Shown here in pieces: positions 4,041 through 26,083 of a stretch of 34,595 bases of DNA. This DNA comes from Terriglobales bacterium (GTDB lineage: Bacteria; Acidobacteriota; Terriglobia; Terriglobales; Acidobacteriaceae): NCBI GenBank assembly GCA_035624455.1, contig DASPRM010000091.1:1-34595 (forward strand), read 5' to 3'. Positions within the stretch are counted from its first letter, which is position 1. Every line of letters begins with the position of its first letter. The notes under the pieces are model-generated. The model made no database searches, was not told the origin of the DNA, and saw only the letters and a list, made by a program, of their open reading frames with translations. Made by a program: the position numbers and the translations under genes.

Positions 4041-4077
4041 CCCAGGTTCGCGCCGTGCAGTTCGGCGTTAACCTGGG
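4041..4077 (+). repeat. Hairpin repeat with CCCAGGTT/AACCTGGG arms, copy 1
   Basis: CCCAGGTT at 4041-4048 pairs with AACCTGGG at 4070-4077. An inner CGCC/GGCG pair is separated by two-base internal loops. It lies 28 bases after the porin stop codon. A copy with the same architecture is at 26042-26077. Confidence 0.8.
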
Positions 4078-4100
4078 CTCGAAGAAGAAACCTAAAGGTG

Positions 4101-4138
4101 CCCCACTCCAGCCCGCTTTTGGCTAGGGTGGGGCTTTT
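4101..4138 (+). terminator. Terminator-like hairpin (GTGCCCCAC repeat family) after the porin gene
   Basis: CCCCACTCCAGCC pairs with GGCTAGGGTGGGG (13 positions, one mismatch, one wobble), then CTTTTC. It begins GGTGCCCCAC like the repeats at 11982, 14334 and 17942, so it is both a family member and a plausible terminator. Confidence 0.6.
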
Positions 4139-7590: not shown

Positions 7591-7624
7591 GGCTCGTCTC
7601 CACCGGCGTCCAGAAACTTTCTAT

Positions 7625-7682
7625 TGTTATCCTGAGCGAGGACAGGGAATAACCATCCCCGTCCGAGAAGGACCTGTTGTTT
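7625..7682. repeat. TCATCCTGAGCGA-type dispersed repeat, copy 1
   Basis: Starts GTTATCCTGAGCGAGG and ends with the CGAGAAGGACCTGTTGTTT tail shared with the copies at 11867, 18175 and 20174. An inner GGACAGGGA/TCCCCGTCC pairing gives a hairpin. It sits between the binding-protein gene and livH inside the operon. Confidence 0.75.
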
Positions 7683-8936: not shown

Positions 8937-9033
8937 GACTGCGCCTCCTCAATCAGCCCGCGTGATAAGCGCGGCGCATTGTAGTAATTGCTGATCGCCG
9001 CCGACAAGTGCCACCATGGATGATAATCAGCAC

Positions 9034-9082
9034 GTGGAAACGGACGTCCCCCGTCCGTTCAGGTCGAGGCGCGACCTCGACA
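9034..9082 (+). repeat. Family A palindromic repeat, intergenic copy 1
   Basis: GTGGAAACGGACGTCC followed by CCCGTCCGTTCAGG, then the tail GGTCGAG...CTCGACA. Two consecutive hairpins are possible: ACGGACG/CGTCCGT and GTCGAGG/CCTCGAC. The same element occurs at 13149, 16903 and 18077. Confidence 0.85.
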
Positions 9083-9232
9083 GATGTGTGCCAGGACCCA
9101 GGGCCGCGCGAATCGACCTGCGGCGACCTTCGGATGATTGGTCGACCACGTCAATCGACGCTGTGATTAGGGTCACTTCCAGGCGTGATTGGCGCACGGA
9201 GAGAATTAACTCACATAGGAACGTCGGGTAGG

Positions 9233-9266
9233 CCCACCCTCCCGCCCGCTCTTGGCGGAGGGTGGG
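9233..9266. repeat. CCCACCCT/AGGGTGGG hairpin repeat
   Basis: CCCACCCTCC pairs with GGAGGGTGGG around a CCGCC..GGCGG inner region. It is related to the GTGCCCCAC family and is about 85 bases upstream of the amidohydrolase start. Confidence 0.75.
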
Positions 9267-9351
9267 ATCACGCGTCCTATCCCTCCAGACTCGAGCGCAG
9301 CCTCGACATAAACTTCCCAAAGCCTCATGCCATATATTAAAGAGGCTCACC

Positions 9352-10851: not shown

Positions 10852-11853
10852 ATGAGCGCGGGCATCGCCGTCTCCATTTCCGAATATGTTCCTGACGAAT
10901 ACTGCCAGCTCCAGGAAGATATCGAGCCTGCCACTGTAATAACAAAGAAGCCGGCTCGCCGCCCTCAGCCCGTCGATTTTGAATCGGCGAATCCGCTGGC
11001 CACCCCCGGCGTAACTCCGGCCTCCCGAATGGAAATCCGCCCTCAGCCGGTGCTGGTTCCTTTCGGGATCTCCGCGCTCGACCGCCTCACAGGCGGTATT
11101 CCTCGCGGCGCTCTAACGGAAATTATTGGCCACGCCTCCAGCGGCCGCACCTCCCTCCTGCTTTCCTTGCTGGCCGCAATGACCCAGCGGCAGGAAGTCT
11201 GCGCCGTGGTCGATGTGAGCGACAATTTTGATCCTGCCTCCGCCCAGACAGCAGGATTGGATCTGCCGCGCCTGCTTTGGGTACGTTGCCGGAGCCATGT
11301 GTGGCGCGGACACTCTTGTCCGCGTGTTTCAGCGGGTTCTGAATCACACTCGGAGAAAATACTTACCCGCAATCGTTCTCGGCTGCACACCAAGCCCGAA
11401 TTCCGCGCCCTCGACCAGGCATTGAAAGCCACCGATCTGTTATTACAAAGCGGCGGATTCGGCCTGATTGTTATGGATCTGGGCAGCGTTCCCGCGGAAA
11501 TGGCGCGCCGCATTCCGCTGACCTCGTGGTTCCGTTTCCGCCGCGCGGTGGAGAAGACACCCACCATCCTGCTGGCCATCGAACGGGAATCCTGCGCCAA
11601 AACTTGTGCTTCACTGGTGTTGCATCTCGCGGCGCGGCATTCGGCTGCTAGCACGCAGCCCGAGCAGTCCTCAGAAACTGCGCATTCAGGACAATTGAAT
11701 CCCAGCGAACCACCCTCGCATGGAACTCTGCTGCGCGGCTTGGAAATCAAAGCGGAAGTCTTGCGCGCACCCGATCTCAGCTTTCAACGCAAACCGGTGC
11801 GCTCCGTGCGCACGGAATTTGAATCCAGGACACCATGGACCATCGCCGGCTAG
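10852..11853 (+). CDS. imuA: ImuA, RecA-like component of the mutagenic translesion cassette
   Basis: 333-residue RecA/SulA-like protein. In characterised systems ImuA works with ImuB and DnaE2 in damage-induced mutagenesis. The RecA-like core starts near residue 70 (GISALDRLTGGIPRGALTEI), with a degenerate P-loop, GHASSGRTSLL, at about residues 93-103, and continues to FGLIVMDLGSVPAEMARRIPLTSWFRFRRAV. The ATG at 10852 has GAGG 7 bases upstream. Residues from about 150 to 161 (VWRGHSCPRVSAG) are encoded by a dispersed repeat at 11299-11335, and the Ser/Arg-rich stretch up to about 182 also looks inserted between LLWVRC and the RALDQALKA helix. imuB and dnaE2 follow in order. Confidence is high for the cassette and moderate for activity. 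Confidence 0.85.
   Translation: MSAGIAVSISEYVPDEYCQLQEDIEPATVITKKPARRPQPVDFESANPLATPGVTPASRMEIRPQPVLVPFGISALDRLTGGIPRGALTEIIGHASSGRTSLLLSLLAAMTQRQEVCAVVDVSDNFDPASAQTAGLDLPRLLWVRCRSHVWRGHSCPRVSAGSESHSEKILTRNRSRLHTKPEFRALDQALKATDLLLQSGGFGLIVMDLGSVPAEMARRIPLTSWFRFRRAVEKTPTILLAIERESCAKTCASLVLHLAARHSAASTQPEQSSETAHSGQLNPSEPPSHGTLLRGLEIKAEVLRAPDLSFQRKPVRSVRTEFESRTPWTIAG
11299..11335 (+). repeat. Family A-prime repeat inside imuA
   Basis: GTGTGGCGCGGACACTCTTG followed by TCCGCG forms a GCGGACA/TGTCCGC hairpin. It is in frame within imuA and matches the shorter copy in dnaE2 at 16618 (TGGCGCGGGCGCCCTCGACC...). Confidence 0.75.
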
Positions 11854-11866
11854 CTATTTGTTGCAT

Positions 11867-11970
11867 TTGTCATCTTGAGCGAGGATCGGGCATACCAGTC
11901 CCGATCCGAGTCGAAAGACCTTGCGTTTATTTGTCATCACGAGACCGCCGTGCAGGTGAGGAATCTGCAG
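11867..11970. repeat. TCATCTTGAGCGA-type repeat, copy 2, with a second partial unit
   Basis: TTGTCATCTTGAGCGAGGAT ... ATCCGAGTCGAAAGACCT, with GGATCGGG/CCCGATCC arms. It is followed at 11930-11970 by a partial relative (GTCATCACGAGA ... GAGGAATCTGC). It lies in the imuA-imuB gap. Confidence 0.8.
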
Positions 11971-11981
11971 TTACTGCTTGA

Positions 11982-12040
11982 GGGTGCCCCATCCTAGCCT
12001 TCTTTGGGCTAGGGTGGGAGGTCGAGGCGCAGCCTCGACA
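11982..12040 (+). repeat. Family B repeat (GTGCCCCA...) with family A tail
   Basis: GGGTGCCCCATCCTAGCC pairs with GGGCTAGGGTGGG and is followed at 12020-12040 by GGTCGAGGCGCAGCCTCGACA, the same tail that ends family A copies. It is directly upstream of imuB. Confidence 0.85.
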
Positions 12041-12058
12041 GGTTAACAATCGATCACC

Positions 12059-14008
12059 ATGTTCGCCTGCTTCTACATCCCGGATTTCCCCGTCGCCGCG
12101 GTGACGCGCACCGAACCCGATTTGCGCACGCAGCCGCTGGCCATCACCGAAGGCACCCCGCCGCTGGTCCGCGTGATCGCACTCAACGAGAAAGCGCGCG
12201 AGGCGGGAGTCGAAATCGGAATGACGGAGTCGCAGGCCGAAGACCTGCTGGCTCTCACTCTTGGAAAAATTCCCGAACTCTCCGCAACAAAATTGCACTG
12301 GGCCTCCCAGACTCCGGAAACCTGCTATCAGGTTCGTCGCCGGTCATTACAACAAGAGTCATCAGCACATGCTGCGCTGCTCGATTGCGCCTGTGCTTTC
12401 TCGCCGCGCGTGGAAGCCACCGCGTCAGACACAGTAATCGCCGATCTCGCCGGCCTCGAATCTCTCTTCGGACCACCGGCTAAGATCGCCCGCGATGCGG
12501 CCCAGAGCTGCTCGAATGCAGGGCTCGAGGTGAACGTGGGTGTGGCCTCCAATCCCGACGCCGCTATGCATGCGGCTCGCGGATTTTCCGGCATCACTCT
12601 GATCGCTGCAGGCGAAGAGGGCGAGCGTCTGGGCGCATTGCCGATTGAAATCCTGCTGATGCCAAACAATCCCGTGCTGCCGAACCCGGGCGTGGAGCCC
12701 GGAGACGTCAAGCCCGTAAAGGGTACTCACGCACGGACAAATAAAGATCGGACGGAGGAGAAAACCTCCCAGGAATTGCTGGACACCTTCGATCGCTGGG
12801 GCGTGCGCAATTTTCGCGCGCTGGCCATCCTGCCTGAAATCGCTCTTGTCGAGCGACTGGGAGAACGCGGTTTGCACCTGCAACGCTTGGCACGTGGCAC
12901 TACTTCACGGCCGTTGGTTCCGGCAGAACTTCCGCTGCATTTCGAAGAATTTTGCGATCTGGAATATCCCATCGATCTGCTGGAGCCGCTGGCTTTCGTT
13001 CTCAGCCGTATGACGGAACAGCTCTGTGCCCGCCTGAGCGCACGCGCGCTGTCTACGCACCAGCTATCGCTCCGCCTGGAACTCGATCCGGATGTGACAA
13101 TAGATCGCGAAGGCCTGCCAATCGAAGAACCCTCACCGGCGATAGTCACGTGGGAACAGACGTCCCCGTCCGTTCAGGCGGAACGGAGCTCCGCATCACA
13201 GCATAGTCCGGCACGTGAGTGCCGGGATCCCGGCGCATTAGAGTCCGAGTCCCGACAGGGACGGCACACTAACGTGCACCCAGATGAGCACAGCAACAAG
13301 GAAGCTTCTCTTCATCCCCCAAAATTCCACCACTGCCTGCTCCGTCTGCCTGTGCCCATGCTCGATGCCAAAGTCTTTCTGAAACTGCTGCAACTGGAAT
13401 TGAAGTCGCACCCGCCGCAGGCTCCGGTATTGAAAATCTGGCTGACGGCCGAGCCAACCAAGCCGCGCACCGCGCAGCAAGGTCTCTTTCTCCCGCTGAC
13501 GCCACCACCGGAAAAGCTGGAACTGACGCTGGCGCGTCTGGGAAGAATTTCTGGAGACATGGAGAACGTCGGATCTCCCGAGGTGCTCGACACGCATCGT
13601 CGCGATGCCTTCGTCATGCAGCGCTTCGCCCCTCCCGCCCCCGATTTTGAGAAGTGCGTCCAGACAAATACTTCTGAGCATCCTTTAGTTGCCATGCGGC
13701 TGTTCCGCCCGCCGATTCCGGCAAGCGTCGAGCAAAACGGCGGCAAGCCAATGCGGATTTCGATCCTGCCCGCGAATTCAAAGATGGTGCCATTACTCTC
13801 CGGCCCGCTGGCCTGGTGCGCCGGCCCCTGGTACAACTCCGGCGAATGGTGGAACCACGATCGCTGGGAGCGGGAAGAGTGGGATATCGCCGTAGCCAGC
13901 TCGCAACAGCACTCGAGCCAGCTCGCGCGGGTGCACGACATTGCGTTGTACCGCATTTACCGCGACCTGTTGAGCGGCCATTGGTTCGTGGAAGGCGAAT
14001 ATGACTAA
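12059..14008 (+). CDS. imuB: ImuB, catalytically inactive Y-family polymerase-like protein
   Basis: 649-residue Y-family polymerase homologue. In studied systems ImuB is not a polymerase but links ImuA and DnaE2 to the sliding clamp. The N-terminus MFACFYIPDFPVAAV lacks the acidic pair of active Y polymerases, and the SIDE-type motif is replaced by ADLAGLESLFG near residue 129, consistent with an inactive site. QLSLRL at 335-340 fits a beta-clamp-binding motif. Residues from about 364 to 420 are foreign-looking (Ser, His, Arg, Glu-rich) and match repeat DNA at 13149-13300; the conserved part resumes at HHCLLRLPVPM. The ATG has no clear ribosome-binding site. The C-terminal part (AWCAGPWYNSGEWW, then WFVEGEYD) is typical of the family. 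Confidence 0.88.
   Translation: MFACFYIPDFPVAAVTRTEPDLRTQPLAITEGTPPLVRVIALNEKAREAGVEIGMTESQAEDLLALTLGKIPELSATKLHWASQTPETCYQVRRRSLQQESSAHAALLDCACAFSPRVEATASDTVIADLAGLESLFGPPAKIARDAAQSCSNAGLEVNVGVASNPDAAMHAARGFSGITLIAAGEEGERLGALPIEILLMPNNPVLPNPGVEPGDVKPVKGTHARTNKDRTEEKTSQELLDTFDRWGVRNFRALAILPEIALVERLGERGLHLQRLARGTTSRPLVPAELPLHFEEFCDLEYPIDLLEPLAFVLSRMTEQLCARLSARALSTHQLSLRLELDPDVTIDREGLPIEEPSPAIVTWEQTSPSVQAERSSASQHSPARECRDPGALESESRQGRHTNVHPDEHSNKEASLHPPKFHHCLLRLPVPMLDAKVFLKLLQLELKSHPPQAPVLKIWLTAEPTKPRTAQQGLFLPLTPPPEKLELTLARLGRISGDMENVGSPEVLDTHRRDAFVMQRFAPPAPDFEKCVQTNTSEHPLVAMRLFRPPIPASVEQNGGKPMRISILPANSKMVPLLSGPLAWCAGPWYNSGEWWNHDRWEREEWDIAVASSQQHSSQLARVHDIALYRIYRDLLSGHWFVEGEYD
13149..13300 (+). 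repeat. Family A repeat plus adjoining repeat sequence inside imuB
   Basis: 13149-13197 is a family A element (CGTGGGAACAGACGTCCCCG ... CGTTCAGGCGGAACGGAGCTCCG) with an altered tail. 13205-13300 adds further short palindromes (GGCACGTGAGTGCC, and GTCCCGACAGGGAC). The whole block keeps the imuB frame open. Confidence 0.8.
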
Positions 14009-14016
14009 TAGGTGGA

Positions 14017-14075
14017 GCAGGCCTTTAGGCCTGCATGAAGAGCTGCAAAGGATCCGGGCTTTAGCCCCTGAGGGG
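14017..14075. repeat. Palindrome cluster between imuB and dnaE2
   Basis: Three perfect short palindromes: GCAGGCCTTTAGGCCTGC at 14017-14034, GGGCTTTAGCCC at 14056-14067 and CCCCTGAGGGG at 14065-14075. They fill the 94-base gap, leaving no obvious ribosome-binding site for dnaE2. Confidence 0.85.
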
Positions 14076-14102
14076 ACTTGATGCAATCAGACATAGCATT
14101 CT

Positions 14103-17100
14103 ATGTACATTGAGCTTCACTCCCGTTCTGCTTTCAGCTTCCTCGAAGGCGCCAGCGTTCCCGAGGAACTGATACATGTCTGCGCCGCTCTCGGCATGCC
14201 GGCGATGGCCCTTCTCGACCGTGATGGCGTTTATGGTTCGCCGCGCTTCCACCTGGCAGCGAAAAAAGCAGGACTGCGTGCCCACATCGGCGCCGAAATC
14301 ACCACGCAGTCTGCAGTCGCCACCAAAATCTCGGGGGTGCCCCACCCTTCCGCCGCTTTGGGCGGAGAGTGGGGTAGTTTCCGTCTTCCACTATTAGTCG
14401 AAAGCCGCACCGGATATCAGAATCTCTGCCGCCTCATCACTCGCATGAAAATGCGTGGGCCCAAGAACTGCGATCCCTCGCTGATTGCTGCCCATCCCGA
14501 TGATTTTTCCGAATTCTCCAACGGTTTGATCTGCCTCACCGGCGACGAAAACGGTCCGCTTGCCGAAGCTTTGCATCGTGGCGGCATCGCAGAAGCCCGC
14601 CAAGCTGTGAGTTCTCTTATTGAAATCTTCGGCTCGAAGAACGTTTACGTCGAACTGCAACGCCACTTCGATCGCGACGAAGAGGCGCGCAATCAGGCGG
14701 CCATGCGCATCGCCGAGGACCTTCATCTCCCTCTCGTTGCCACCAACGGCGTCGCGTATGCAGCACGCAAGGAACGCGAACTCCTTGACCTGCTCACTTG
14801 CGTTCGCGAACACACCACCATCGACGAAGCCGGCCGGCGGCTGGCTCTGAACTCCGAGCGCCACCTGAAATCGTCGGCGCAAATGTCCGCCCTTTTCGCC
14901 GACTTGCCCCAGGCCATCCAAACCACTGTCGAGCTTTCCTCGCGGCTCGAATTCGCACTCGATGACCTCGGATACCAGTTCCCGAAATATCCGGTGCCCG
15001 CAGGCGAAACCATGAATTCCTTCCTGCGCACTATCGCGCGGCAAGGTTGCGAGGAGCGCTACGGCCGAGCTCCGCGCGAGATGCAGGCACGCGCCCGGAG
15101 GCAGATCGAGCGCGAACTGGCGCTGATCGAAAAGCTCGACCTGGCGGGCTATTTCCTGATTGTCTGGGACATCGTCCGCTTCTGTCGCGAACAAAAAATT
15201 CTTGCCCAGGGCCGCGGCTCAGCCGCCAACAGCGCCGTCTGCTACTCGCTCGGAATCACCGCTGTCGATCCGGTGAAGATGGATCTCTTGTTCGAGCGTT
15301 TTCTTTCCGAAGAGCGCGGCGAGTGGCCGGACATCGACATTGATCTGCCCAGCGGCGATCAGCGCGAACGCTCCATTCAATATGTCTACGAGCGTTATGG
15401 GAAGCTGGGCGCCGCCATGACGGCCAACGTCATCACTTATCGCGGGCGTCTGGCCGCGCGCGAGATCGGCAAAGCTCTCGCCTTCGACACCGAAACTCTG
15501 GACCGACTTTCCGCCATGGTCGGCACCTGGGAGTATCGCGATCCCAAGGAAACTCTGGAATATCGATTCGACCAATCCGGCTTCGATCTGCGCCATCCGC
15601 GCATGGCGAAGTTTCTCGATCTCTGCCTGGCGGTGCAGGATTTGCCCCGCCATCTCGGTCAGCACTCCGGAGGCATGGTGATCTGCCAGGGCCAACTCGA
15701 TTCGGTGGTTCCACTCGAGCCCGCCACCATGCCCGGCCGCGTCGTCGTGCAGTGGGATAAAGAAGATTGCGCCGACATGGGCATCATCAAGGTCGATCTG
15801 CTCGGATTGGGAATGATGGCGGTGCTGGAAGAATCGATCCAGCTCATCCGCGATCACTATAAAGAAGGAGTCGATCTCGGCCAGCTCCCGCCCGACGATC
15901 CCATCGTTTACGAAGCCCTCCAGAAAGCCGATACCGTGGGTCTCTTCCAGGTTGAGAGCCGAGCGCAGATGTCGTGTCTGCCGCGCCTGCGTCCGACAAA
16001 GTTCTACGACATCGTCGTGCAGGTGGCGCTGATCCGCCCCGGACCGATCGTGGGCGAGATGGTGAATCCCTTCATCAAGCGCCGCCAGGGACGCGAGCCG
16101 GTCACCTATCCTCACCCGTCTCTCGAGCCCATCCTCGAGCGCACTCTGGGAGTGCCTCTATTCCAGGAGCAGCTTCTGCGCATGGCGATGGTGGCCGCGG
16201 GATTCACCGGCGGCGAAGCCGAAGAGTTGCGCCGCGCCATGGGCTTCAAGCGGTCAGAAGCGCGTATGCGTGAGATCGAAACCAAGCTGCGCCGCGGTAT
16301 GGAACGCAACGGAATCCCGCAGCAGGCGCAGGAGTTGATCATTCAATCGATTGTCTCCTTTGCGCTCTACGGATTCCCTGAATCGCACGCTGCCAGCTTC
16401 GCGCTGATCGCTTATGCCAGCGCCTATCTCAAATATCACTACCTGCCGGCATTTCTGGCAGCCATCCTCAATAACCAGCCTATGGGTTTCTATCATCCCG
16501 CTACGCTCGTCAAAGATGCGCAACGGCACGGACTGAAGGTCAGGCCTATTGATGTGCTGAAATCAGATTGGTCATGCACGCTGGAGCCATTGGGTGATAC
16601 AGCATCGGCCAGCAGCCGTATGGCGCGGGCGCCCTCGACCGCGGGTCGCGTCGAAACCAAAACCTCCGGTGCCACCAGCGATCGTTTCGCGGTTCGCCTC
16701 GGATTGCGATATATTCGCGGCCTGCGCGAAGAAGCGGGACAGGCGATCGTGCGCGAGCGAAACCGCCGCCGCTTCATGTCCATCGACGATCTTGCTCTGC
16801 GCGTTCCCGAACTGCGCAAAAACGAACTGGTGATGCTGGCCAGCATCGGCGCCCTAAATAGCGTGGCATCTTGTGTGGGAACAGGCGTCCATGATGAAGA
16901 ACGTGTGGGAACGGGCGTCCCCGCCCGTTCAGGTCGAGGCAAAGCCTCGACAGCCTTCCACCGCCGCGACGCTCTCTGGCAGGTCGAGCGCGCCGCTCGT
17001 CCCTGCGGACCGCTACTGGAAGGTATCCAGGAATTCGATGGCCCATCTCCGCTCGCATGCATGACTCACGAGGAGCGCCTGGTTGCAGATTTCCGCGGTA

Positions 17101-17477
17101 CCGGACTCACAGTAGGCCCGCATCCAATGGCCTTCCGACGGGAGGAAATGTCGCGCCGCGGAATCACACCCGCCGCTGAGTTGCTCAAGTTGCCAAATGG
17201 AAAATTCGTCCGCACGGCAGGCTGCGTGATCACTCGCCAGCGTCCGGGCACCGCACACGGATTCGTCTTCCTCAGCCTGGAAGATGAGACGGGCATTTCC
17301 AATGCCATCGTCACGCCCGATTTATTCGACAAGTACCGTCTAATCCTGATGACGGAAAAATTCCTGCTGGTGGAGGGAAAACTGCAAAACTTGGACAACG
17401 TGATCTCAGTCAAAGCAGAGCGCCTGAAACCGCTGAATTTCAATCACATACAAACCAGCTCGCACGACTTTCACTGA
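14103..17477 (+). CDS. dnaE2: Error-prone DNA polymerase III alpha subunit DnaE2
   Basis: C-family replicative-type polymerase used for translesion synthesis, 1124 residues. The PHP domain is at the N-terminus (IELHSRSAFSFLEGAS). The palm motif GRGSAANSAVCYSLGI is followed by the catalytic acidic set PDIDID at 409-414. The fingers region carries QHSGGMVIC and DLLGLGMM. A C-terminal OB-fold runs from about GKFVRTAGCVITRQRPGTAHGFVFLSLEDETG to the end. Three segments look like repeat-encoded insertions: residues about 78-91 in the PHP domain, about 839-848, and about 924-950 before the FHRRDALWQVERA segment. None breaks the frame or touches a catalytic motif. The start is an ATG that begins directly at the conserved MYIELH. 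Confidence 0.93.
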   Translation: MYIELHSRSAFSFLEGASVPEELIHVCAALGMPAMALLDRDGVYGSPRFHLAAKKAGLRAHIGAEITTQSAVATKISGVPHPSAALGGEWGSFRLPLLVESRTGYQNLCRLITRMKMRGPKNCDPSLIAAHPDDFSEFSNGLICLTGDENGPLAEALHRGGIAEARQAVSSLIEIFGSKNVYVELQRHFDRDEEARNQAAMRIAEDLHLPLVATNGVAYAARKERELLDLLTCVREHTTIDEAGRRLALNSERHLKSSAQMSALFADLPQAIQTTVELSSRLEFALDDLGYQFPKYPVPAGETMNSFLRTIARQGCEERYGRAPREMQARARRQIERELALIEKLDLAGYFLIVWDIVRFCREQKILAQGRGSAANSAVCYSLGITAVDPVKMDLLFERFLSEERGEWPDIDIDLPSGDQRERSIQYVYERYGKLGAAMTANVITYRGRLAAREIGKALAFDTETLDRLSAMVGTWEYRDPKETLEYRFDQSGFDLRHPRMAKFLDLCLAVQDLPRHLGQHSGGMVICQGQLDSVVPLEPATMPGRVVVQWDKEDCADMGIIKVDLLGLGMMAVLEESIQLIRDHYKEGVDLGQLPPDDPIVYEALQKADTVGLFQVESRAQMSCLPRLRPTKFYDIVVQVALIRPGPIVGEMVNPFIKRRQGREPVTYPHPSLEPILERTLGVPLFQEQLLRMAMVAAGFTGGEAEELRRAMGFKRSEARMREIETKLRRGMERNGIPQQAQELIIQSIVSFALYGFPESHAASFALIAYASAYLKYHYLPAFLAAILNNQPMGFYHPATLVKDAQRHGLKVRPIDVLKSDWSCTLEPLGDTASASSRMARAPSTAGRVETKTSGATSDRFAVRLGLRYIRGLREEAGQAIVRERNRRRFMSIDDLALRVPELRKNELVMLASIGALNSVASCVGTGVHDEERVGTGVPARSGRGKASTAFHRRDALWQVERAARPCGPLLEGIQEFDGPSPLACMTHEERLVADFRGTGLTVGPHPMAFRREEMSRRGITPAAELLKLPNGKFVRTAGCVITRQRPGTAHGFVFLSLEDETGISNAIVTPDLFDKYRLILMTEKFLLVEGKLQNLDNVISVKAERLKPLNFNHIQTSSHDFH
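14334..14376 (+). repeat. Family B repeat inside dnaE2 (PHP domain)
   Basis: GGGTGCCCCACCCTTCCGCC pairs with GGGCGGAGAGTGGGG. It encodes GVPHPSAALGGEWGS between GAEITTQSAVATKIS and the conserved RLPLLVESRTGYQNL. Confidence 0.8.
16618..16646 (+). repeat. Family A-prime repeat inside dnaE2
   Basis: GTATGGCGCGGGCGCCCTCG followed by ACCGCGGGT. It aligns with the imuA copy at 11299 (GTGTGGCGCGGACACTCTTG) but is read in a different frame (MARAPSTAG here, VWRGHSCPR there). It lies between CTLEPLGD and the conserved RFAVRLGLRYIRGL. Confidence 0.6.
16873..16953 (+). repeat. Two family A repeats inside dnaE2
   Basis: A truncated unit at 16873-16890 (GTGTGGGAACAGGCGTCC) is followed by a full unit at 16903-16953 (GTGTGGGAACGGGCGTCCCC ... 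GGTCGAGGCAAAGCCTCGACA). The encoded peptide is CVGTGVHDEERVGTGVPARS and onward, in frame. Confidence 0.88.
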
Positions 17478-17941: not shown

Positions 17942-17998
17942 GGTGCCCCAGCCTCGCCGTCCTTTGTTACGGTGGAAGGTCGAGGTGTGACCTCGAGG
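17942..17998 (+). repeat. Family B repeat with family A tail, copy upstream of typA
   Basis: GGTGCCCCAGCCTCGCCGTC ... ACGGTGGAA, then GGTCGAGGTGTGACCTCGAG. The arms are more diverged than in the copy at 11982, but the tail palindrome is intact. Confidence 0.75.
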
Positions 17999-18076
17999 GG
18001 AATCGAGCCTGAAATCGACACGCTTCGATGCGGTTGCGGCCCTGAAGAGTCCCAGATTGTATCTGAGAGGGATTGT

Positions 18077-18124
18077 ATGTGGGAACGGACGTCCCCGTCC
18101 GTTCAGGTCGAGTGCAGCTCGACG
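18077..18124 (+). repeat. Family A repeat, intergenic copy 2
   Basis: TATGTGGGAACGGACGTCCC, CGTCCGTTCAGG and the tail GGTCGAGTGCAGCTCGAC. This is the cleanest copy of the family in the window. Confidence 0.9.
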
Positions 18125-18174
18125 GCAATACGGGTAAACTTTCGGCTGCGCCATTCCATAAATCCTCTCCGCTC

Positions 18175-18280
18175 TGTCATCTTAAGCGAGGGCCGGGTCC
18201 GGGGTCCCCGGCAAGCCTGCTTTTGGTTTGCTGGGGTAGGAGTCCCGGCCCGAGTCGAAAGACCTGGTGTTTGTTTTTGT
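18175..18280. repeat. TCATCTTAAGCGA-type repeat, copy 3
   Basis: TGTCATCTTAAGCGAGGGCC ... GGCCCGAGTCGAAAGACCTG then GTGTTTGTTTTTGTC. The GGGCCGGG/CCCGGCCC arms enclose a second hairpin (CCCCGGCAAGC / GCTGGGG-like). Confidence 0.8.
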
Positions 18281-20173: not shown

Positions 20174-20269
20174 GTCGTCATCCTGAGCGAAGCGCCTGCC
20201 CTGTTTTTCTGCCCCGGAGCTTTTGCGGGTCAGGCAGGCACACAGTCGAAGGATCTGGTGTTTGTTCTT
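20174..20269. repeat. TCATCCTGAGCGA-type repeat, copy 4
   Basis: GTCATCCTGAGCGAAGCGCC ... CAGTCGAAGGATCTGGTGTT, with GCCTGCC/GGCAGGC arms. It lies between typA and the decarboxylase gene. Confidence 0.85.
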
Positions 20270-26041: not shown

Positions 26042-26083
26042 CCCAGGTTCGCGCCTTGCTTTCGGCGCTAACCTGGGTTTCTT
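26042..26083 (+). terminator. Hairpin with CCCAGGTT/AACCTGGG arms, copy 2, terminator-like
   Basis: CCCAGGTT (26042-26049), inner CGCC/GGCG, AACCTGGG (26070-26077), then TTTCTT. It has the same architecture as the hairpin at 4041-4077. It lies between the convergent ada and DinB-like genes, where it could end transcription of ada. Confidence 0.6.

Follow-up and report, generated by a model that had tools for sequence, protein, structure and literature searches.

In-frame absorption of dispersed repeats by the ImuA-ImuB-DnaE2 mutasome of a Terriglobales bacterium and its relatives

The mutagenesis cassette and its repeat blocks

The stretch of 34,595 nucleotides analysed here as a whole and called the window (contig DASPRM010000091.1 of GenBank assembly GCA_035624455.1, from a soil bacterium of the Terriglobales) carries imuA, imuB and dnaE2, the genes of the ImuA-ImuB-DnaE2 mutasome, in an operon-like order that was checked in the window and in the relative G006. 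All three genes hold in-frame blocks of repeats that are otherwise dispersed between genes, and all three frames are open, as a sequence-only reading of this DNA had claimed. This absorption of repeats into a mutagenic polymerase complex is real, strongly biased and phylum-wide. The host genome comprises 4.39 Mb in 166 contigs, of which the window is C91, and it is the single representative of its genus in our comparison set. The closest matches to its DnaE2 among named genomes are Acidobacteriales/Terriglobia bins, and the DnaE2 proteins of its nearest relatives are only ~70% identical to it. The features of the cassette are as follows.

10852..11853, + strand: imuA, encoding RecA-like ImuA; one open frame, Pfam RecA
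11299..11330, + strand: hairpin repeat within imuA, near residues 149-165; its 23-mer at 11302 has intergenic copies
12059..14008, + strand: imuB, a Y-family polymerase homologue; one open frame, Pfam IMS
13100..13327, + strand: 76-residue ImuB insert after residue 347
13143..13194, + strand: block of repeat E1 within imuB, from the intergenic-only repeat library
14103..17477, + strand: dnaE2 (imuC), a paralogue of the DNA polymerase III (Pol III) alpha subunit; one open frame, Pfam PHP/DNA_pol3_alpha/finger/HHH_6/OB and Foldseek
14319..14369, + strand: DnaE2 loop 1, residues 73-89, in the PHP domain; predicted local distance difference test (pLDDT) < 50
14336..14373, + strand: E2-type hairpin in DnaE2 loop 1, from the intergenic-only library
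16599..16673, + strand: DnaE2 loop 2, residues 833-857, between the finger and helix-hairpin-helix (HhH) domains; pLDDT < 50, containing a weak repeat at 16623-16643
16878..16949, + strand: DnaE2 loop 3, residues 926-949, between HhH and OB; pLDDT < 50
16897..16955, + strand: E1 double-hairpin repeat in DnaE2 loop 3, from the intergenic-only library

The repeat library of the host genome was built from the intergenic DNA of that genome alone, and it recovers three of the in-gene blocks, at 13143-13194 in imuB and at 14336-14373 and 16897-16955 in dnaE2. The imuA block at 11299 was not flagged by this library; its 23-mer (11302) has seven intergenic copies with at most four mismatches in the 1.08 Mb scanned, not counting itself and a single weak match inside a gene, while a reversed and two shuffled controls gave none. 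The dnaE2 block at 16618 is weak, with five whole-genome matches at up to three mismatches, itself included, against two for the reversed control. Four of the five named in-gene blocks thus match intergenic repeats of the host genome, and the fifth, at 16618, does so only weakly. The E1 double hairpin occupies at least 42 positions (of 83 candidates, 40 were scored), 40 of them intergenic, one in dnaE2 and one at a called gene start that precedes a ribosome recycling factor domain. It is a short palindrome with tens of mostly intergenic copies, as is typical of elements resembling repetitive extragenic palindromes (REPs), and in tandem gaps it lies with transcription three times and against it four times. 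The blocks within genes sit at variable positions with conserved stretches on both sides, so that the proposed placement between conserved parts of the proteins holds in alignments with relatives. They are inserted in frame, have no counterpart in orthologues and originate from dispersed repeats, in all of which they resemble palindromes absorbed into proteins; the peptides that they encode are predicted ones.

Copies in the gaps at 9034, 11982, 17942 and 18077, which had been read from the sequence, are real and correspond to four of the following intergenic blocks.

9028..9084, + strand: intergenic E1 copy
9231-9267: intergenic repeat block
11867..11972, + strand: intergenic repeat block in the imuA-imuB gap
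11980..12041, + strand: intergenic E2 and GTCGAGG hairpin block in the imuA-imuB gap
17942..17996, + strand: intergenic E2-like copy
18076..18129, + strand: intergenic E1 copy
18174..18276, + strand: intergenic repeat block, sharing one repeat with 11867-11972
4041-4133, 7619-7682, 20177-20263 and 26042-26077: further intergenic blocks of the own-genome library

The bias towards the cassette was assessed in a sample of the host genome made up of the even-numbered contigs C2-C160 (at most 20 kb from the start of each) and the window, which amounts to 979,495 bases, or 22% of the genome, with 768 genes called by our own hexamer script. The sample contains 158 repeat blocks, 152 of them between genes; the six inside called genes divide into three at gene ends and three internal ones, all three of the latter in imuB or dnaE2. 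Two of the gene-end blocks are at starts that are probably mis-called, one ahead of the first domain in a gene of sigma-70 type and the other ahead of the ribosome recycling factor domain, and the third, in a Mur ligase read as MurC (L199 17686-17749, same genome), makes up its C-terminal tail. None of the remaining genes of the window contains a block of the intergenic-only library, in line with the initial reading, and all 64 blocks in 20 additional stretches picked for E1 copies are intergenic. As the cassette represents 6,318 of 788,335 coding bases, the chance of finding three of three internal blocks there is ~5e-7; this figure is post hoc, the window having been singled out for this very feature, and comparisons not so chosen weigh more.

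A second sample, from G006 (396 kb, in 19 systematic stretches and one over the cassette), contains 31 blocks, 27 of them intergenic, two in dnaE2 and two inside other genes, namely a hydantoinase/oxoprolinase gene (L334 3889-3919) and a class-V aminotransferase gene (L336 8308-8344), both assigned by Pfam. The cassette has 0.33 blocks per kb, as against 0.0063 outside it, the former value being conditioned by the choice of G006 for the insert in its DnaE2. Strict exclusivity of the repeats to the cassette is ruled out by the two internal blocks in other genes: the suspected bias is strong without being absolute. Absorption of repeats into proteins is rare but general, and the mutasome is an outlier. 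Two further genes of G006 hold copies: one is PD-(D/E)XK-like, with the copy near its C-terminus, and the other encodes a membrane-protein fragment. This fragment, at the start of G006:C1 (L258 3-431), is weakly Lgt-like (Pfam LGT below cut-off) and has the repeat peptide VILSGAEASRSE inside. In another genome, G060, a repeat makes up the C-terminal tail of a prephenate dehydrogenase (L285, near 1451-1485).

Insert sites and insert origins in relatives

The comparison with the replicative paralogue DnaE1 in the same genomes is not subject to the selection of the window. From 60 genomes of the family we aligned 39 DnaE2 proteins (the window, 29 best-match loci and nine lower-ranked loci, some lower hits being skipped and L102 being partial) and 31 DnaE1 proteins from the same genomes. 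Inserts of at least 12 residues are present in 26 of the 39 DnaE2 proteins and in one of the 31 DnaE1 proteins, and inserts of at least six residues add up to 1,714 residues in DnaE2 against 54 in DnaE1, N-terminal extensions being counted in both. Across the 31 paired genomes, DnaE2 ranges from 1052 to 1366 residues in length, while DnaE1 stays within 1155-1176 save for two short ones. Length variability is not common to all repair genes here, since full-length Mfd matches of the same family span 2,796-2,889 nt and those of the main UvrA ~2,700-2,870 nt.

Where the inserts fall was surveyed in 101 DnaE2 proteins, comprising the 80 best matches, the window and 20 chosen because of a long frame or a single-contig genome. 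Inserts of at least 12 residues cluster after window residues 71 (46 proteins), 831 (28) and 925 (28), the count of 46 including a conserved, non-repeat stretch of ~11-14 residues from another lineage. With a stricter length cut, the three sites are filled in 25, 45 and 45 of 131 rows, and the minimum number of changes on a FastTree tree is 14, 24 and 15, to be taken as a guide only. The shared sites hold different fillings in different relatives. Minor sites at 888, 976 and 980 (nine, seven and seven proteins) are found mostly in other classes. At residue 888, eight of the nine inserts show by eye a zinc-ribbon-like CxxC...CxxC stretch (CPKCG...CNVCAHDW), which looks like a genuine domain insertion and not like a repeat; its carriers (L309, L310, L314, L321, L323, L324, L325 and L328) come from genomes of other classes picked for long frames.

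The other two proteins vary as well. ImuB has inserts of at least 12 residues after residue 347 in 18 of 62 rows, the window included, and ImuA is length-variable around residues 149-165 and 270, many of the 149-165 inserts of other lineages not being repeats. One kind of peptide is common to ImuA of L003 and L020 and to DnaE2 of L106 and L166. Peptide families defined by regular expressions match 47 of 131 DnaE2 rows at the three sites and 49 of 131 elsewhere in the far longer rest, and were not used as evidence.

The DNA of the relatives' inserts was traced with 94 unique internal inserts of at least 15 residues, left of 110 after removal of 16 that lay at the N-terminus, duplicated or fell within another insert, or came from L031. 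Matches outside dnaE (E <= 1e-3) were obtained for 34 of the 94, as compared with one of 94 control segments of matched length from the cores of these genes (p = 6.5e-11); together with the library blocks, this bears out the view that the inserts are dispersed repeats and not conserved protein. The loop-1 insert of G006 has at least 44 whole-genome matches including itself (40 of 124 candidates scored), mostly between genes, and for the loop-3 insert of L009 there are 27 matches, spread over roughly a dozen places in its genome and again mostly between genes. By context, where one place can count more than once, the G006 matches are 31 intergenic, one mostly intergenic, two at gene ends and four internal (two in dnaE2, two in an endonuclease-like gene), and those of G060 are 54 intergenic, eight mostly intergenic, 14 at ends and nine internal, all of the internal ones in dnaE2. 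An intergenic library of 80 relatives, which contained too few repeats per genome to be of use, gave three blocks, all intergenic and none in dnaE2.

A predicted model of the window DnaE2, calculated from a 47-sequence alignment (mean pLDDT 80.2), has the fold of Pol III alpha, with Foldseek matches to the Pol III alpha of M. tuberculosis, Thermus and E. coli. Six of its segments have pLDDT < 50, and the three longest (73-89, 833-857 and 926-949) are the insert sites. The core is conserved: among the 31 paired genomes, median core identity is 0.723 for DnaE2 and 0.753 for DnaE1, a distance ratio of 1.14. The available text of PMC3919608 likewise describes the conservation of DnaE2 as equal to that of DnaE1 and replicative polymerases, its core length as heterogeneous and its epsilon-binding surface as little conserved.

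As to how the elements spread, four Y1 transposase matches occur in the host genome, one of these loci having both flanks. There (L349 1-660, contig C71), a Y1_Tnp gene at 48-581 lies between inverted copies of a 33-nt element at 6-38 and 610-642, so that a dispersed repeat surrounds the gene as terminal inverted repeats (TIRs) do in TIRYT systems. The E2-type block in DnaE2 loop 1 (14336-14373) shares both ends with this element and differs from it in the middle, and 52 nt upstream of a shortened transposase gene (L352) lies another copy of the 33-nt type. The L349 transposase is therefore a candidate driver of E2-type elements, judging from these flanks, and dispersal was probably in part transposase-driven. 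The suggestion that the elements are mobile or formerly mobile is thus reasonable for the family flanking the Y1 gene and does not extend to E1, for which no transposase link was found in the host genome.

Possible reasons for the bias

We consider tolerance to be the best account, at a probability of roughly 0.55, although it is incomplete and explains the preference for this complex only in part. Short hairpin (REP- or TIR-like) and simple-sequence repeats would disperse and land almost everywhere between genes, and copies that arrive in frame would persist in a few disordered surface loops of the mutasome, because they fall into loops without a needed contact. The chief ones would be the three in DnaE2, in the PHP domain and at the finger/HhH and HhH/OB junctions. 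DnaE2 acts outside the replicative holoenzyme and, unlike DnaE1, probably does not bind the proofreading subunit, and its independence from such partners may be what leaves the loops free of contacts and tolerant of inserts, which would themselves be close to neutral. With the core kept under selection, separate lineages would then independently fill the same loops with whatever repeats are available.

Several observations weigh against this proposal. No outside match was obtained for 60 of the 94 inserts, the DNA searched being small for most relatives. The inserts show no stronger folding than segments of the core do, with a median of -0.148 per nt for both sets (p 0.46), which disfavours a purely hairpin account; some relatives' inserts are tandem, non-palindromic units and, taken with the folding result, this means that a single mechanism cannot cover all. 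The lack of a transposase link for E1 also belongs here, as does the second UvrA copy of the family, whose variable Lys/Ala-rich linker holds a repeat-like peptide by eye in one of 20 examined (SLRLGSGQA in L365, G009:C100:58150-58700), the G006 repeat library giving no match to the 20 linker stretches. A free linker alone, therefore, does not draw repeats at the rate of DnaE2, and on this ground we lowered the weight of tolerance and slightly raised that of a locally increased rate of insertion at the cassette, with the loops being merely where survivors show. Such a local excess, perhaps due to a repeat-dense neighbourhood, to single-stranded DNA under damage or to HUH-type transposition, is the main rival but the less probable of the two, at something like one chance in four or five. 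The repeat-rich surroundings of the cassette suggest that local supply may matter, as the 6.9 kb of non-coding DNA in the window hold 12 intergenic blocks, ~2.3 times the density found in the remainder of the sample, and Y1 transposase genes are present, one of them flanked by inverted copies of an element type that dnaE2 also contains. The other genes of the window are nonetheless free of blocks, and recurrence at three loops, instead of a spread along the gene, requires selection in any case.

It is rather doubtful that the inserts were selected for changing mutasome activity, by weakening or tuning the polymerase or by altering its contacts. All three cassette members carry inserts here, gain and loss are repeated at the same DnaE2 sites (the minimum of 14, 24 and 15 changes), and a mutator role of REP-tagged repair proteins has been the subject of speculation in the available text of PMC3733652; yet the sites are filled by sequences unrelated in kind and length, 13 of the 39 family DnaE2 proteins have no insert of at least 12 residues, and the low pLDDT of the insert segments is consistent with filler. 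On the bolder form of this idea, to which we give equally little credence, the three DnaE2 loops would be landing pads refilled repeatedly by acidobacterial lineages with unrelated repeats, with disordered inserts tuning the mutagenic polymerase, and a genome's junk repeats would be the raw material that sets its mutation rate under stress.

Relaxed constraint over whole genes, proposed when the repeats were first read, would mean a decaying or rarely used cassette open to anything. Some copies do look broken: G035 (L102) is split near residue 1006, L031 is out of frame in places, and second DnaE2-like matches in two genomes contain an internal stop (G342:C2:238917-241112 and G202:C1:1138266-1139774), both genomes also having a longer, open match. 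Nearly all DnaE2 copies examined are open, however, and with a core at only ~1.14 times the DnaE1 distance the idea does not stand in its general form and appears very improbable. Least credible of all is an artefact of metagenome assembly. Most insert-bearing relatives are metagenome bins, but many independent assemblies have open frames with inserts at these same sites, which makes artefact difficult to maintain as a general account, and the single-contig genomes G166 (7,480,314 bases) and G339 (6,468,984) encode DnaE2 proteins of ~1225 and ~1326 residues whose repeat-like inserts lie for the most part at other sites.

The sites at which a mutagenic polymerase accepts foreign sequence are now mapped, so that it becomes possible to test cheaply if the repeats taken up act as filler or modify damage-induced mutagenesis. 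For annotation, peptides such as VILSxxxASRSEAxxESKDP should be recognised as deriving from repeats, not domains.

Relation to known repeat systems

Rickettsia palindromic elements are found in unrelated genes, whereas internal coding insertions are rare here outside the mutasome. What the two have in common is that palindromes encode peptides within proteins with the frame kept (available text of PMC3733652 and PMC5896051). The QMITEs of Coxiella, too, are miniature elements that sometimes lie in frame within open reading frames, and no mutagenesis operon is mentioned for them in the accessible part of PMC5896051. TIRYT transposases with terminal inverted repeats are known from Koribacter and other Acidobacteria, according to the portions available of PMC3733652, and resemble the L349 locus, where a Y1 transposase gene lies between inverted repeats of a kind that is dispersed in the genome; the GGGGWSAS motif given there has no exact match here by eye, and E1 differs in that no transposase was found for it.

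A search of titles and abstracts in the open-licence literature, with supplementary files outside its scope, found no treatment of recurrent DnaE2 loops in Acidobacteriota, and the available text of PMC3919608 and PMC6511836 makes no mention of such inserts in DnaE2. The entry of repeats into genes of this type is already known, and it is for the phylum-wide refilling of the same loops that we found no description.

The closest precedent is that of the intragenic GTAG/CGTC REPs described in 2013, for which the following is taken from the available text of PMC3733652. Several species have REPs inside coding regions, many of them in genes of DNA synthesis and repair, DnaE2 included, so that the belief that such insertions had not been described for a translesion cassette has to be given up for the polymerase. 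In some species, genes of the repair type are the only REP-tagged coding sequences, and REPs within one functional category of genes occupy different sites, except in recB of two Xanthomonas species. With the present case they share in-frame absorption of palindromic repeats, repair genes as the target and DnaE2 among them. The tag rule of these REPs, an unpaired terminal GTAG or CGTC by the hairpin, does not apply to E1 or E2 when sequence and folds are read by eye; no terminal tag was seen on E1, where CGTC occurs inside the stem only. The 2013 remark on DnaE2 and repair genes becomes a comparison with an internal control, the DnaE1 of the same genomes. In contrast to those REPs, several unrelated kinds of repeat are involved here (hairpins, inverted-repeat elements and tandem units), and they recur in the same DnaE2 loops phylum-wide and enter ImuA and ImuB as well, while DnaE1 is almost clean.

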